A DNA stretch of 64,000 bases from Siphonodentalium dalli (lineage: Eukaryota; Mollusca; Scaphopoda; Gadilida; Siphonodentaliidae). The stretch is from NCBI GenBank assembly GCA_032622095.1, contig CP136067.1, forward strand, positions 39,661,549 through 39,725,548, given 5' to 3'. Below are positions 38,018 through 61,130 of the stretch, piece by piece. The notes under the pieces were generated by a model. It was not told the DNA's origin, ran no database searches, and was given only the letters and a program-made list of their open reading frames with translations. Each line of letters begins with the position of its first letter. Positions within the stretch are counted from its first letter, which is position 1. The translations under genes were made by a program, and so were the position numbers.

Positions 38018-38148
38018 TCATATAGAGTAGTGCGATCGTAAAACGAATGCAGCAGATATCAATGAGAATATTGCAATAGCATTAGGCCTAATATTTACAG
38101 AAGACGCCCGTATATCGGTTATTGATGGGTCAAACCTCACCATACCAC
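38018..38148 (-). CDS. CNTN: Contactin-like gene, last coding exon (GPI-signal tail)
   Basis: The acceptor TTTCAATTTGCAG precedes GGT. Two bases finish the Gly codon split from exon 43189-43363, then GMVRFDPSITDIRASSVNIR and PNAIAIFSLISAAFVLRSHY follow with SI and stop TGA. A short polar linker and a hydrophobic run (AIAIFSLISAAFVL) at the extreme C-terminus fit a GPI-attachment signal, as expected for contactins, though the tail is short. The phase fit over a 5-kb intron supports the assignment. Confidence 0.82.
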
Positions 38149-38413
38149 CTGCAAATTGAAAGAATATTATTATAATTCATAAGCTGTTCATTTTCTCAAC
38201 TCTATACGAAGAAACGAAATTAAAAAAAAACCAGAATACAAGTAAAAAATATTGCTACTAATAATAAGCCAAGCCTCTGTGACAGTTTGGTATATGTGTG
38301 GGGCAGATAGGGCCACTTTGTGAATCTACATGTATTCACTTTTCTTCCCGCCACAAAATCACGTGACTGCGAGTGCCAGCTGCCATGTGCATACATTTGC
38401 CGGTAACTAAACG

Positions 38414-38507
38414 GATATATAGAATATGCTACGTACTGAACAGATATGTAGAATATGCTACGTACTGAACAGATATGTAGAATATGCTACGTACTGAACA
38501 TATATGT
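38414..38507. repeat. 31-bp tandem repeat, three copies
   Basis: AGAATATGCTACGTACTGAA occurs three times in a row with a TATATGT linker, almost without differences. It lies in the last contactin-like intron. Confidence 0.85.
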
Positions 38508-39747
38508 ATATTACTGCACGCTTGTTCATAGAAGTACAGTGTTATTGCTGTTCCATATTTACAAATACGCATCTCATTGACGTAACATGACGTACACGAC
38601 GTTCGCCTCAACCATGACACCGGAACTATTTAAACTAGAATGCACTCAGAGAGATGCCAACGTGCGCAAAAATGTAATAAACAAAAATTTAAAAAATAAT
38701 TTCACTGTATTTTACTTAATTAATTTAATTTAATTTAATGTTAGCAAAAAAAGACAATTACCATTTCTCATTTCATCACAGATAAAAGGCAAATTACTAT
38801 ATTAATCATTTAACTAATTAAAACCAATTCCATGTTGCCGAAAGGATGAGACTTTAATATCGATTACATTTTTTTCAGCGGCATATTTTGATTTTCATTT
38901 TCCGATAGTCAAAGTTGACCAAAGGAGCAATTATTAGAAATAATTAATACCATTTGTGTAAATATTGATAGCAGCCAATATGCAACAATAAATATAAATA
39001 ATTAATCAATAATCAATCAATAACTATCATTTTATGTAATAATAAACTCTTCAAACGGTGTTTGTGTCAACAAATGCGTTTTGTTTTGTGTTACGTCATT
39101 CGTCGTATTTGACCCGGAACTCGGCTGAAGGTTAGGCTATTCAGCCTATTGCGTCGAATTACGAAATCGCGTTTTGAATGTCTCTCTTTTCCCGCACGAT
39201 AAAAAGAGGTTTTCGCACGAACCAAAAATGATAAAACTTCCCAATTATAAGTAAAAATACCCAAATGAAGGAGTCTGTGTAGGTCCCGAAGGAGTCTATA
39301 GACTCTTTGATATAGAGTTCTGATGGAGAAAATGTAGGTCGATCTATTTTTGTCATAACTCTGACGTAATTTGACCTGGGAGAAAAAATCGAAATCGAGG
39401 CTCACTACGAGCATGCCAGTTTTAAATATAGAAACAAGGAATCCCGACAAATGGCGATATCGGCGACAAACAAATAATCGAAAACAACACTTAAAATAAA
39501 CATATCAAAAACGCGGCACAGTAAAAATGTCAGAACGCCACGAGGTTTTACGTCGTTTTTGGTGACGTCATGGAGTGAAACGGAGTAGGGTGACACCAAC
39601 CTACGAATCTGTCTGATCGCCCTACTGTTGCGCGAGCGCACGTAATAATAGCATCATCACACATGACAAAACACGCCCTGTACGCATGCGCCTAAATAAA
39701 CCTTCTAAGTCTGTATTTTTAATGCACGGATTCTAGGGCGGGGACAT
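38508..39747. other. Contactin-like intron, nothing firm
   Basis: AT-rich sequence with a TTAATTTAATTTAATTTAAT run at 38719 and an ATAATTAATCAATAATCAAT stretch at 38998. No gene or clear element recognised. Several - strand open frames around 39090-39640 have no family resemblance. Confidence 0.4.
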
Positions 39748-40310
39748 GTAATAAACACAGAACGACACGTGTGTTAATGTATCGGTTGATACGGAATTTG
39801 TGCCTACACGGAAGGATATAACTCGAGGCTGCGCATCTCGTTCTTTCATTCCGAAGTAGCACTCGTGCCGTATCAACAAACCCATTAATACACTCGAGTT
39901 GTTCTCTGTATTTATTATACGTTTGTTCCTGGAATTAGTGTGCTTGCTGTTCCATATTTACACATTCGTATGGAACACGTGTTCCATACGCATCCCTTTG
40001 ACGTCACGCAGCACAAATGACATTCCCATTAACTATGAAACCGGGACTATAAAATAAAAAAATGACACATACACATGACAAAACAAGCCTTGTGTGTGCC
40101 TGAATTAACCTTGTAAGTCTGTTTTTTTTATTTTCCGGATTCCAGGACGTGTGGTGTGTAATAAACACAGAACGACACGTGTGCTAATTGTTTTTCGATA
40201 CGGCACTTGGGCCACGCGGAAGAATCGAGTTCTCTTTCTATCTTTCTGCGCTGGCACTCGTGTCGTAACAACAAACTCATTAACAAATTCGTGTCGTTCT
40301 TTGTGCCTAC
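39748..40310. repeat. Two diverged fold-back repeats in tandem
   Basis: GTAATAAACACAGAACGACA at 39748 and its partial inverse (TTGTTCTCTGTATTTATTAT, ending 39919) form one hairpin. A second hairpin with the same left arm starts at 40158 and ends near 40310. GATACGG/CCGTATC lie just inside. Probably two MITE copies of one family. Confidence 0.65.
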
Positions 40311-40438
40311 GTTTGGAGGGAATATAAATCCATTGGCACCTGAAGTTGTGCCACGAGGAAGGATAGAGTTCTCGTTTTGTCGTGTCCTTCTGAGTATATA
40401 TATTTGGTATCTGATCTATAATCGGTCGATAAGCCCCT

Positions 40439-40904
40439 CATAACCCTTTACTCAACAAAACGGCCAAAAACGACCAAATAAAGCTTCAATAGCCTAAAAT
40501 ATCTTCGGTCTGTCTCACTAACACCATACAAATATGGATATAATTGGAACCGGTTCATTGGCCACATTGTGATGGTTACAGTTATGCCCTGTGCCAATGC
40601 ATTCTCTTATATATGCGAGTCGACCATAGGTCGCCTCGCATATATAAAAGAATGCATTGGCATAAAAAAAATCTTTTTTTAACACATTTTACCATTTTTT
40701 CTTACATTCTTTAACAATTTTATAATCTTTTCTTACATTTTTAAACAATTTTTATAATATTGTTTTACATTCTTTGACAATTTTATCATTTTTAATATGT
40801 GTTAAGCCAATGCATTCTCTTATATATGCGAGGCGACCTATGGTCGACTCGCATATATAAGAGAATGCATTGGCACAGGGCCGTTCTGTTGGGTAAAGGG
40901 TTAA
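40439..40904. mobile_element. piggyBac-like MITE P1, copy 6 (expanded spacer)
   Basis: The left end is ATAACCCTTTACTCAACAAA (TTAA mutated to ATAA) and the right end TTGGGTAAAGGGTTAA. The cassettes 40593-40661 and 40806-40874 are full length. The spacer has a triplicated TCTTACATTC(T)TTAACAATTTT block, making this copy longer than the others. Confidence 0.85.
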
Positions 40905-41104
40905 CAATTGAATTGTTCATATAATGTGGACTATAAGATTGCAGGCTTTATGCCCCACCACTGATTACAGAAACAACTGGGATTTGTTATGTGGATTTCG
41001 TTTATAGATAAAACAATCTATCGCACTGTTGACGATTTTTCCCATCGAATTGCGAATTGTTCATTTGTGGAACATGATATGGCAGGTCCTACGCCTCACA
41101 ATTG

Positions 41105-41382
41105 CAGGGGCATAGGAAGCTATATTTATTGGGGGGGGGTATCATGGGGCGTATAAAAGAAGTTTGTATATGAGGGGCCACATTCGATAATCTTTATAAT
41201 GGTACCCCCAACCGCTAATTTCCCATATATAGTATACTATATATTTTATGTCAAACTGTACAGAGAATGTGACTGGTTAGGTTGAATAAATAAGAAATAC
41301 AGTTTAAGTGTTGACCATTTTCTGGAATTTTTTTGGGGGGTATTTACCCCCCCCCCCTTACCCCCCGGTTCCTACGCCCCTG
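41105..41382. mobile_element. hAT-like MITE with perfect 8-bp target duplication
   Basis: The ends CAGGGGCATAGGAA and TTCCTACGCCCCTG are inverted. CACAATTG occurs at 41097-41104 and 41383-41390. Internal G-run and C-run tracts sit near each end. It is inserted into one unit of a local duplication (ACAGAAACAACTGGGATTTG at 40968 and 41393). Confidence 0.85.
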
Positions 41383-41527
41383 CACAATTGACTACAGAAA
41401 CAACTGGGATTTGTTATGTTGACTTAGTTTAGAGATAGAACATGCACTCTGTTTCACTATTGGGTGATATTTTCCCCATCACATGCAGGTACTCCGTGTT
41501 ATTGTCTGTTGATTGTTGAAGTCGGAC

Positions 41528-43188
41528 GTGACCCAACCTAACAACTATCTCACCCAGCGACCCAATCTAACAACTATCTTACCCAGCGACCCAATCTAAC
41601 AACTATCTTACACAGCGACCCAATCTAACAACTATCTTACCCAGCGACCCGATATCAATATCTTACCCTGCGACCCAATTTAACAACTATCTTGCCCAGC
41701 GACCCAGTCTAACAACTATCTTATCCAGCGAACCAAACCCAAATTCACCGAATCTAAAAACTATCTTACCCAGCGACCCGATCTAACAACTATCTTACAC
41801 AGCGACCCAATCTAACAACTATCTTACCCAGCGACATAAACTAACAACTATCTTACACAGCGACCCAATCTAACAGGTATCTTACCCAGCGACCCAAATC
41901 TAACAACTACCTAACCCAGCGACCCAATATAACAAATATCTTACCCAGCGGCCTAATCTAACAACTATCTTACCCAGCGACCCAGTCTAACAACTATCTT
42001 ATCCAGCGACCCGATCTAACAACTATCTTACCCAGCGACCTAAACTAACAACTATCTTACCCAGCGACCCAATCTAAAAACTATCTTACTCAGCGACCCA
42101 ATATAACAACTATCTTATCCAGCGACCCAAACCCAAATTTACCCAAATCTAACAACTATCTTACCCAGCGACCCAATCTAACAACTATCTTACCCAGCGA
42201 CCCAATCTAACAACAATCTTACCCAGCGACCCAAACCCAAATTCACCCAAATATAACAACTATCTTACCCAGCGACCCATTCTAACAACTATCTTACCCA
42301 GCGACCCAATCTAACAACAATCTTACCCAGCTACCCAAACCCAAATTCACCCAAATCTAACAACTATCTTACACAGCGACCCAATCTAACAACTATCTTA
42401 CCCAGCGACCCAATCTAACAACAATCTTACCCAGCGACCCAAACCCAAATTCACCCAAATCTAACAACTATCTTACCCAGCGACCCATTCTAACAACTAT
42501 CTTACCCAGCGACCCAATCTAACAACAATCTTACCCAGCGACCCAAACCCAAATTCACCGAATCTAACAACTATCTTACCCAGCGACCCATTCTAACAAC
42601 TATCTTACCCAGCGACCCAATTTAACAACAATCTTACCCAGCGACCCAAACCCAAATTCACCGAATCTAACAACTATCTTACCCAGCGACCCAATCTAAC
42701 AACTATCTTATCCAGCGACCCGATCTAACAACTATCTTACCCAGCTACCCAATATAACAACTAACTTACCCAGTGACCCAATCTAACAACTATCTTATAC
42801 CATGCGACCCAAATTAACTGTCTTACCCAGCGACCCAGTCTAACAACAGTTTCTATCTTACACAGCGACCCAATCTAACAACTATCTTACCCAGCGACAC
42901 AGTCGAACAACTAACTTAGCCAGCGACCCAATCTAACAACTATCTTATACCCTGCGACCCAATCTAAAAACTATCTTACCCAGCTACGCAATCTAACAAC
43001 TATCTTACCCAGCGACCCAATCTAACAACTATCTTACCTATATATAACGACCCAATCTAACAACTATCTTATCCAGCGACCCAGTCTAACAACTATATGA
43101 CCCAGCGACCCAATGTAACAACTATCTTACCCAGCGACCCAATCTAACAACTATCTTATCCAGCGACCCAATCTAACAACTATCTTAC
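41528..43188. repeat. 29-bp minisatellite abutting a contactin-like exon donor
   Basis: About 55 units of ACCCAGCGACCCAATCTAAC plus AACTATCTT run to the border of exon 43189-43363. A longer variant containing AACCCAAATTCACCCAAAT recurs every three or four units between 42120 and 42670 (higher-order structure). On the transcribed (-) strand each standard unit reads CGCTGGGTAAGATAGTTG. This is the same as the last exon bases plus the 5' splice site of that exon. Confidence 0.95.
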
Positions 43189-43363
43189 CCAGCGTGAAGT
43201 AAATTGTAGGAGACATGGTTCCTTTGCCGCCTCGATTCCACCCAGACACGCGGACCTCATAGAGCTCATCCTTCTCAATGTTTCTAATAACCGTCTCAAA
43301 CACCTTGCCGAGGTAAATCTCTCGGGCAATTACCAGATCCTCATTAGCTTTCATGTAAGTAAT
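43189..43363 (-). CDS. CNTN: Contactin-like gene, exon for second half of last FnIII domain
   Basis: The acceptor is CTTATTCGACAG and the donor GTAAGATAGT. It encodes ITYMKANEDLVIAREIYLGK, VFETVIRNIEKDELYEVRVS and GWNRGGKGTMSPTIYFTLG. The YEVRV...NRGGKG..SP pattern is the F-G strand region of a fibronectin III domain, and the TLG end matches the junction before contactin GPI tails. It enters in phase 0 and ends one base into Gly. Its donor is the first unit of the 29-bp minisatellite. Confidence 0.9.
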
Positions 43364-55828: not shown

Positions 55829-55950
55829 CTGATATCCCATGACCTCGCCACCGACGGCCAGCCTGGAGTTCTCCATGGGCGTCCATGTTACTATCATCGC
55901 TGTAGAGTTATATGGGTAGGCCCGTACGTTCTGGACGGCTGTTGGTGGCA
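55829..55950 (-). CDS. CNTN: Contactin-like gene, FnIII exon (first half of middle domain)
   Basis: The acceptor is TCTTACTTGTAG and the donor GTATAT. Two bases complete Leu, then PPTAVQNVRAYPYNSTAMIV and TWTPMENSRLAVGGEVMGYQ follow. PP..V.N(V)RA...NSTAMIVTW is a textbook FnIII A-B strand start, and GEVMGYQ joins in phase 0 to VNYW of the next exon. NST is a potential N-glycosylation site. The acceptor and first exon bases are repeated in the intron upstream. Confidence 0.92.
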
Positions 55951-58200
55951 CTACAAGTAAGAGAGACACAGTATTAACACGAAGAATAATTTCTGCAAAC
56001 TGCAAATGTTGCGACGTAATTATAGCCTATAACTATAGCTGAACGACTGTTGGTGGGACTATACAAATAAGAGAAACACAATATTAACACGAAGGTAGGA
56101 TTTCCAGTGAGATGTACAAAGGTTGCGACGAAACTATAACATATAACTATAGTTGAACGGCTGTTGGTGGCACTACCAATAAGAGAAACACAATATTAAC
56201 ACGAATGTATGATTTCCAGTGAGATGTACAAAGGTTGCGACGTAACTATAACCTATAACTATAGCTGAACGGCTGTTAGTGGCACTACCAATAAGAGAAA
56301 CACATTATTAACACGAAGTTAGGATCTTCAGTGAGGTGTACACAGATTGCCATGTATATATCTTGTAACTATAGCCTATAACTGTAACTATAGGTTACAA
56401 TACACCAAATACAAATTAGTAGTGTGATTTCCCCTGACACTACCAAGCTAGAATCAGCATACAAAAAATTATGGCAGCTGAATGGTCAATGATACATGGA
56501 TGAAAAGTGCACGAAAAAATGCACAAATGTGTTTCCCGTCGAGAAACATCAATTGTAATACGACCCTGCCTAACTATGCTTAAAAGCCATGTCCTGATTG
56601 GCCAGTGGCCCGAGTTACCATGGCTATCTCGTTCCAGTTTTGTGGTACAATTCTACTTTTTCCAATTGTACCACGAAAAAAATCGGTTTATTCAGATCGC
56701 GCACGCGACTTTTCCCGTCTTTTCTAACTCCGCGCAAACGGGGCATCAACGGAGTACACCCGCACCCGTAATCCCTTTGAATTTTGCTACATCTTGACAA
56801 TCTTGCGAATTTTCTAGCGATTTGTCGCTTGAAACCAGTTTGGTTGCCAATGAATATGGTCCAAATGATGTTATGGTATATTGATATATGTTACGACCAA
56901 AGAAAGTTACTTAATAAGTATATTAAATGACAAAATAAATCCATGGGGCCGGGCTGTGCATTCGTCGATTCGAATCTCGATCATATTCGATATTTCGGAA
57001 TCAAGTTGAAAATGAAAGCGTTTGTTCACCAGTACAGAAGGGGAATAAGATTAGTTTAGTAAACTAGATCATTTAGATCGCTTTGTGTAAGGAAAATGGT
57101 CCATAGTCGATGATCATATTCATGTTGTCCCAACAACGTTCAAAACAGAAATGACCCAATCGTATTTCCTGTACAATTTAAATGAAACGCACGGGCGCCG
57201 CTGAAAACACATCGTTTTTTAGCCAATCACAACGATTATTTCTAGAAGAGGTGCCTCGAAAAGTCAACGGGGGAATTTCATAACAAGACAAGACATTACC
57301 AGAATACTCCATGCAAAGAAATCGAGTACGCCCAATACGAATTACACCACGAAATGTTTTCTCACCTGAGACCGAAAAAGCGCAACATTTCGTTGACTAT
57401 TCATTCGAATTGTGACCATAAACTTTCAGTCGTATTACAAAAGAAATAAATACACGGTGTATCGGTGTGTATGGTCAAGTTGTACCACAAAAAACTGATT
57501 GTAGGACTCCGCTACGCGTCGTCCTACAATCAGTTTTTTGTGGTACAACTTGACCATACACACCTCTACACCGTGTATTTATTTCTTAAATATTACCACA
57601 TGGTAAACGGTTATGGCTGTGCAAATAGCGAATAATTTTATGGGAGGTGTTTGTGTTTTTTTCGATGTCATTTTTTTCTCAATTTTAAGGGTAGTGTGAC
57701 GTTTTGTCAAGCTGCAGTGTGATTTACCACGTTCACACGTACTTTTGTGCACATTTCTGTGTGTCTAAAAGGACGTTCTTTAATTTCAAATACTCGTGCA
57801 GGGTCAAAGCTTGCCTGCGAATACAGGCCAGCGGGATTTGTTAACACTGAGGCCTATGTAAATCATTTGGTGTATTGTAACCTGTACGGATGGTGTCGAC
57901 AATACCAATAAGAGAAACCCAGTATTAACACGAAGGTAACATTTTCAGTGAGGTGTGCAAATGTTGCGATATACCTAGAGCATATAATTATAACTGAACG
58001 GCTGTTGGTGGCACTGCCAATAAGAGAAACACAATATTTACATGGAAGTAGCACTTCCAGTTAGATGTACAACGGTTGTGACATAAACATAGCATATAAC
58101 TATAACTGAAATGGATGATGAAACCAATAAGAGATACATCATTAACACGACGGTAAGATTTCCAGCGAGATATATACACAGTTGCTACGTAACTATAGCT
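55937..58200. repeat. About 112-bp tandem repeat built from an exon acceptor (array interrupted)
   Basis: Units with GCTGTTGGTGGCACTACCAA then TAAGAGAAACACAATATTAA and AACTATAGC-type ends recur near 56048, 56160 and 56272, then after an inserted element near 57890, 58002 and 58110. On the transcribed (-) strand each unit reads polypyrimidine, AG, TGCCACCAACAGCCGT, like the 3' splice site and first codons of exon 55829-55950. Confidence 0.88.
56393..57882. mobile_element. 1.49-kb TIR element inserted in the acceptor-repeat array
   Basis: GGTTACAATACACCAAAT (56393-56410) and its exact inverse (57865-57882) are the termini. The right subterminus ATAGGCCTCAGTGTTAAC (- strand) resembles that of MITE F, and both begin (TA)TAGGTTAC, so it is probably a longer relative. 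An internal perfect hairpin, TGGTACAACTTGACCATACA type, lies at 57468-57566. No transposase frame. Confidence 0.75.
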
Positions 58201-58298
58201 CGTAACTATAGCTTGTAACTATAACAAAATCCGCACGAAAAATACGAAGTTTGGACTTGAGGACCGGTGGGTGATGTATACATTGGATATTCACTCAC

Positions 58299-60344: not shown

Positions 60345-61130
60345 CCGATATGTTTTAGATTTAGAGATTACATTAGTGACGTAGGTTCATAACTCTGAAC
60401 GTCTTGAGCGACGGTTTAGAGATTACATTGGTGACGTAGGTTCCTGGCCCTGAACGTCTGAAGCGACGGTTTAGATATTACATTAGTGACGTAGGTTCAT
60501 GGCCCCGAACGACTGAAGCGACGGTTTAAAGATTACATTACTGACGTAGGTTGGTGAACGTCTGAATCGACGGTTTAGAGATTACATTAGTGATGTAGGT
60601 TCCTGAACGTCTGAAGCGACGGTTTAGAGAATACATTAGTGACGTAGGTTCATGGTTCCTGAACGTCTGAATCGACGGTTTAGAGATTACAATAGTGACG
60701 TAGGTTCGTGGTTCCTGGACGTCTGAATCGACGGTTTAGAGATTACATTAGTGACGTATGTTTCTGAACGTCTGAAGCGACGGTTTAGATACTACATTAT
60801 CGATGCAGGTTCCCGAACGTCTGAAACGACGGTTTAGATATTACATTAGTGATGTAGGTTCCCGAACGTCTGAAGCGACGGTTTAGAGAATACATTAGTG
60901 ATGTAGGTTTCTAAACGTCTGAATCGACGGTTTAGAGATTACATTAGTAACGTAGGTTCATGACCTGAGCGTCTGAAGCTACGGTTTAGAGACTACAATA
61001 TTGACGTAGGTTCCTGAACGTCCGAAGCGACGGTTGTATTTACATTAGTGACGTAGTTTACTGAACGTCTGGACGGTTTCGAGAATGCATTGGTGACGTA
61101 GGTTCCTGGCCCTCGGTTTAGATATTGTAT
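60345..61130. repeat. Minisatellite of about 45-60 bp with TGACGTAGG
   Basis: About 15 units of GAACGTCTGAAGCGACGGTT plus TAGAGATTACATTAGTGACG and TAGGTTC vary in length through extra CCTGGCC/ATGGTTC segments. Most units hold one TGACGTAGG, close to a CRE half site. Confidence 0.9.

Follow-up and report, generated by a model that had tools for sequence, protein, structure and literature searches.

The DNA analysed here is a 64-kb window (C7:39661549-39725548) taken from a 2.2-Gb genome of nine contigs. Its minus strand carries the 3' portion of a contactin-like gene. Our joined gene model, predicted from the sequence, covers seven exons (59992-59900, 58446-58299, 55950-55829, 51230-51041, 45196-45081, 43363-43189 and 38148-38018) with matching phases, which together give a single open frame of 324 residues. 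The best match of the product among solved structures is Contactin-2 (E 2.9e-24), with other contactins next, and Pfam assigns fn3 domains to it. The arrangement of this 3' portion is contactin-like: fn3 repeats are followed by a hydrophobic C-terminal tail and a stop codon, and by eye this tail resembles a GPI signal.

The penultimate exon (43189-43363, minus strand) encodes fn3 sequence ending in ...SPTIYFTL-G and joins in frame in the seven-exon model through a phase-1 3' end, CGCTGG. The gene model places the true 5' splice site, GTAAGA, at 43183-43188 on the minus strand, and the junction and its phase are the same in two paralogs of the gene, one at C7:131.84 Mb and the other at C1:102.76 Mb. 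The last intron (38149-43188, minus strand) is bounded by in-frame exon joins on both sides and measures 5,040 bp from the exon coordinates. It is followed by the last coding exon (38018-38148, minus strand), which carries the GPI-signal-like hydrophobic tail and the stop codon; each paralog has a similar exon further downstream (E 0.009 in the C7 copy, 2.3e-4 in the C1 copy).

Two other repeats were observed in the window. An array of about 15 copies of a 49-bp unit (60360-61108) lies 368 bases upstream of exon 59992-59900 and stops short of it. A short palindromic element (CCAATGCATTCTCTTATATATGCGAG...) occurs at 40600-40920 and at other window sites, as well as in the flank of one paralog and after the donor in one of the fn3 loci sampled below (L011).

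A 29-bp array repeats the exon-intron junction

The last intron contains a 29-bp tandem array (41530-43194, minus strand) that overlaps exon 43363-43189 by the final six exon bases and repeats these together with the donor. The initial annotation had described this exon as ending in CGCTGG at the donor, with about 50 tandem units behind it that copy the last exon bases and the donor. The coordinates and the junction are as claimed: the exon reads CGCTGG on the minus strand and continues into GTAAGATAG, and the array unit is made of the same two parts, CGCTGG from the exon and GTAAGATAG from the intron. Tandem Repeats Finder reported the interval as overlapping rows with periods of 29, 58 and 104. 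Wrap-around alignment to the 29-base unit, from 43194 on, divided it into 60 rows, consisting of 53 full-type units, the first of which is the real junction, and 7 short spacer pieces. The spacers end in GAATTTGGGTTTGGGT or similar and belong to a 104-bp higher-order repeat that groups about three and a half 29-bp units. Upstream of its last six bases, the exon sequence departs from the unit. An array of this length is beyond chance.

The donor motif is retained in many units and lost in some, as had also been noted: with the true donor included, we counted 40 GTAAG and 34 GGTAAG, against 6 GGATAAG and 5 TGTAAG. Unit 2, the closest to the exon, has no GT. The units retain GGGTAAG and another GGG run. 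Mismatches to the consensus amounted to 20/319 in the proximal 11 units and 38/783 in the distal 27, given as raw counts over ungapped units.

The array fits the structural definition of a mirage. It spans the exon-intron boundary, its unit holds exon as well as intron sequence (the exon being that of the gene model), and a splice signal is present in many, not all, units (39 GTAAG decoys; GGATAAG in 6). Mirages as a kind are already known from lancelets, and the array in the contactin-like gene is a striking further case.

The same gene has an acceptor-side array

An fn3 exon of the same gene (55829-55950, minus strand) has a duplicated 5' end. Here an acceptor-side mirage (55931-56375, minus strand) is built from units of about 112 bp, each running from the end of the intron through the 3' splice site into the first ~20 exon bases, and comprises three decoy units and the real junction. 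Three more diverged copies of this unit, one of them partial, lie at 57882-58211 on the minus strand, about 2 kb upstream of exon 55950-55829. The two blocks are about 1.5 kb apart with other sequence between them and share a single intron. By eye, AG precedes TGCC in three of the six acceptor decoys and TCCC in one, and is lost in two. The contactin-like gene thus carries exon-edge arrays on both the donor and the acceptor side.

Exon-edge arrays elsewhere in the genome

For a base rate, we sampled 70 fn3-exon loci, namely the 30 best-scoring and 40 hand-picked from 150 fn3 matches. The first 30 were taken with 1.5 kb flanks and a 72% identity cut-off and the other 40 with 0.5 kb and 75%, settings at which misses are possible; a single C4 cluster accounts for 24 of the 30 best-scoring loci, and L037 and L038 look like mutual duplicates. 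Multi-copy exon-edge repeats were found at 2 of the 70 loci and a partial exon copy at 1. The first (L034; C4:35171330-35171826) is donor-sided, with 72-bp units that repeat about 40 bases of the exon end and the donor. Its neighbour L022 (C4:35168751-35169070; exon C4:35169072-35169311) has the same 72-bp mirage and stands outside the count. At the second (L080; C9:155569677-155569901), three diverged copies of the exon end and a donor-like site lie in the next intron. In the partial case (L064), a 38-base piece of exon-internal sequence recurs once upstream at 84%; inclusion of the splice site in this copy is not established, and the locus is listed apart. Because multi-copy repeats occur at two of the 70 fn3 loci and a partial copy at one more, we conclude that exon-edge duplication recurs in the host genome. 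The corresponding rate, about 3% of fn3 exons, is a rough figure from a small, C4-leaning sample.

Further loci were flagged and not counted. In L011 and L025 the repeat lies after the donor, in L096 and L101 it resembles a palindromic element, in L009 a 74.6% match is probably to a neighbouring fn3 exon, and in L071 the repeat starts about 140 bases beyond the domain.

A 27-bp array on C3 has about 29 copies and is rich in GGTAAGAT (C3:219907391-219908174; L001 492-1275). It begins where a possible 49-nt exon (L001 453-501) ends and is mirage-like in this respect. By eye, no other coding exon was found near it among plus-strand frames of at least 42 residues within 8.9 kb on the upstream side and 6 kb on the downstream side; the 49-nt exon is therefore unproven, and the C3 array was kept out of the count. 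In a separate search, PF07714 hit a tandem cluster at C2:149826765-150592731, where dozens of kinase-domain matches have almost identical scores and unbroken frames. The 24 kinase loci were mostly copies of one gene.

The junction probably seeded the array

The initial annotation had proposed that the exon junction itself was the seed, and had named the same 29-bp array elsewhere in the genome, away from this exon, as evidence that would speak against it. The genome search confined the unit to the locus: with up to 2 mismatches allowed, it has no match elsewhere in the 2.2-Gb genome, all 40 of 40 matches falling in the array, and the backward-pattern control gave 0. An 18-base junction sequence, with up to 1 mismatch, likewise has no match elsewhere in the genome (39 of 39 in the array; 4 for the backward-pattern control). 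An external origin of the array was also pursued through a DNA search and rejected. This search gave 7 matches including the query itself; the two on C3 are one different 27-bp array, the C9 match is a different short TTGGGT-type repeat, and three further weak matches, all on C7, align to the flank beyond the array.

In both contactin-like paralogs the equivalent exon ends YFTL-G in phase 1, with the junction TTACGTTAG/GTAAGAC in the C7 copy and TTCACATTAG/GTAATTA in the C1 copy. Tandem Repeats Finder found no tandem array past the donor in 715 (C7) and 571 (C1) bases. The next 9 kb of each paralog contain other short tandem repeats, and GTAAGATAG is absent from both strands of the 715- and 571-base stretches and of these 9 kb. 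Since the YFTL-G phase-1 junction exists in the two paralogs with no array next to it, it probably predates the 29-bp array. The exon bases within the 29-bp unit probably derive from exon 43363-43189, as judged from the paralogs. The proposed seed is thus supported twice, by a unit that is unique to the locus genome-wide and by two paralogs that keep the junction with no array adjoining it.

We also considered that the array was an intronic minisatellite at first and met the exon end by chance or through later spread, which we regard as unlikely. The position of the array says little against such a course. Within the contactin-like gene, 2 of 13 exon edges fall inside arrays, no excess over the 1.66 that array coverage would predict (P 0.51), a coverage that includes both exon-edge arrays in question; since position does no better than chance, the case for the array rests on the identity of the junction sequence. 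The genome is rich in minisatellites, and triple GGTAAGW patterns with gaps of 12-42 bases are common in it (13,153 matches), though fewer than for the reversed control (19,005). Donor-like arrays are accordingly not enriched genome-wide by this pattern, with 6,440 + 6,713 on the two strands versus 7,671 + 11,334 for the control; these counts are of matches, not arrays, and one array gives dozens among the matches listed. The unit contains only six exon bases, which also suits an intronic start. Yet these six bases encode the end of the YFTLG motif, which two paralogs keep without an adjoining array, and they run straight into the true donor. In the genome's other exon-edge arrays, the exon part amounts to about 20 to 40 bases, which further argues against an intronic start.

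Decoy donors are strong in prediction and would lead to stop codons

Apart from the true donor, 39 of the 40 GTAAG motifs are decoys, and by sequence the transcript would present dozens of U1-complementary sites, as the initial annotation had anticipated. The predicted U1 duplex is at least as stable as that of the true donor in 33 decoys, from RNA duplex energies with the U1 5' end. Past exon 43363-43189 the frame reads on into the intron as far as a stop at 43153-43151, which lies 38 bases in. Only unit 2 has its donor position before this stop, and unit 2 is the unit that lacks GT. For 39 of 39 GTAAG decoys the added segment contains an in-frame stop, so these decoys are unable to replace the true donor, and the earlier suggestion that the array buffers donor loss finds no support.

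Consensus mismatches were 15/228 in the donor core versus 43/874 in the rest of the unit (p = 0.32), and the donor cores of proximal and distal units did not differ (p = 0.38). The test covers 38 ungapped 29-base units of the 52 after the true junction and leaves aside gapped or inserted units and the 7 spacers. Neither keeping nor removal of donor bases is visible, in a weak test whose units are homogenised and non-independent.

These data bear on several functional readings. The array could be a splicing regulator, in which donors compete for U1, some transcripts are lost at decoys and array length sets the level of GPI-anchored contactin; this shares the mirage origin favoured below and differs in function alone. 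The 33 decoys predicted to pair with U1 no less stably than the true donor does, the stop behind all 39 GTAAG decoys and the reported use of human IFI6 minisatellite units as splice donors (PMC4526556, in the part available) are in its favour. We nevertheless find it quite improbable, given that donor bases show no extra conservation, that the unit nearest the exon has no GT and that lancelet mirages, in the available parts of the reports, leave splicing undisturbed (PMC3087553, PMC3902484).

A length-dependent brake has a similar logic: each added unit would be a U1-binding decoy leading to a stop, so that expansion would lower GPI-anchored contactin and vary it between individuals. We hold this to be very doubtful. 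If its wider form were true, with arrays arising continually at a few percent of the genome's exons, these would amount to a natural splice-choice library.

G triplets can have a role in splicing. The array might aid splicing, its U1-like sites and G triplets marking where a long intron begins and boosting recognition of the true donor. The units do retain GGGTAAG together with another GGG run, and the intron is 5,040 bp long; however, the donor bases carry no conservation signal and the paralogs share the junction without an adjoining array, which leaves this reading extremely unlikely. Overall, the inference on origin is supported, whereas the functional suggestions for the array lack support.

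Discussion

We think it likely that the array is a mirage that arose by tandem duplication of the exon-intron boundary and is now a near-neutral passenger, with the first donor in use. A segment of about 29 bp, beginning six bases inside exon 43363-43189, would have been duplicated in tandem, and the resulting array would have expanded and been homogenised through either slippage or unequal exchange, in part as the 104-bp higher-order unit. The spliceosome would normally pick the first donor, adjoining the exon, a choice that exon definition, an established concept, may help. Transcripts spliced at a decoy would acquire a premature stop and would probably be removed by nonsense-mediated decay. 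The array structure, its absence elsewhere in the genome, the gene model and the stops are read from the sequence; the order of the duplication events, the use of the first donor and neutrality are what we infer. The six shared exon bases count against the mirage explanation, being fewer than in the other mirages observed. By analogy with the reported donor use in IFI6, it is also not guaranteed that the array is tolerated without consequence.

An exon followed by 33 decoys predicted to equal or exceed its true donor is a sharp natural test of first-site choice by the spliceosome. If mirages do occur at a few percent of exons, at least one large animal genome would commonly harbour splice-site arrays and tolerate them, and, if common, mirages would be open to bulk study as a route to new introns or as an origin of splicing noise.

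Comparison with known systems

Tandem duplication across a boundary has been linked to intron gain in potato RdRp (PMC4974935), and tandem repeats at exon-intron boundaries of human genes have been discussed as a source of introns (PMC2812944), as given in the available parts of both reports. In these cases, as here, the duplication extends over an intron-exon boundary, and splice signals come with the copied segment. Unlike them, as far as those parts describe, no new intron or exon is evident at the contactin array, where the copies are intronic and high in number.

A human minisatellite with multiple splice donor sites, in IFI6 (6-16), was reportedly described by Turri et al. in 1995. Two downstream repeat units of IFI6 are reported to be used as donors, which gives three mRNAs (PMC4526556, available in part). 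The likeness, within what is available of that report, lies in minisatellite units with donor sites that adjoin an exon. The difference is that each GTAAG decoy in the contactin-like gene would, if used, bring a stop.

Within a partial coverage of the literature, we found the name mirage applied to no organism other than lancelets. The available parts of the lancelet reports (PMC3087553, PMC3902484) describe mirages in Adh3, globin, troponin C and PGBD5 genes, with units of 10-72 bp in Adh3 and about 150-160 bp in globins, and with 6 and 3 units in BflGb6 haplotypes; these mirages are reported as not disturbing splicing. The arrays described here are like them, to the extent of those parts, in being tandem repeats over a real exon-intron boundary, on either the donor or the acceptor side, and in that many, not all, of the units carry splice signals. 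Unlike the lancelet mirages so described, the contactin-like gene has 53 units of 29 bp and carries both a donor and an acceptor mirage.
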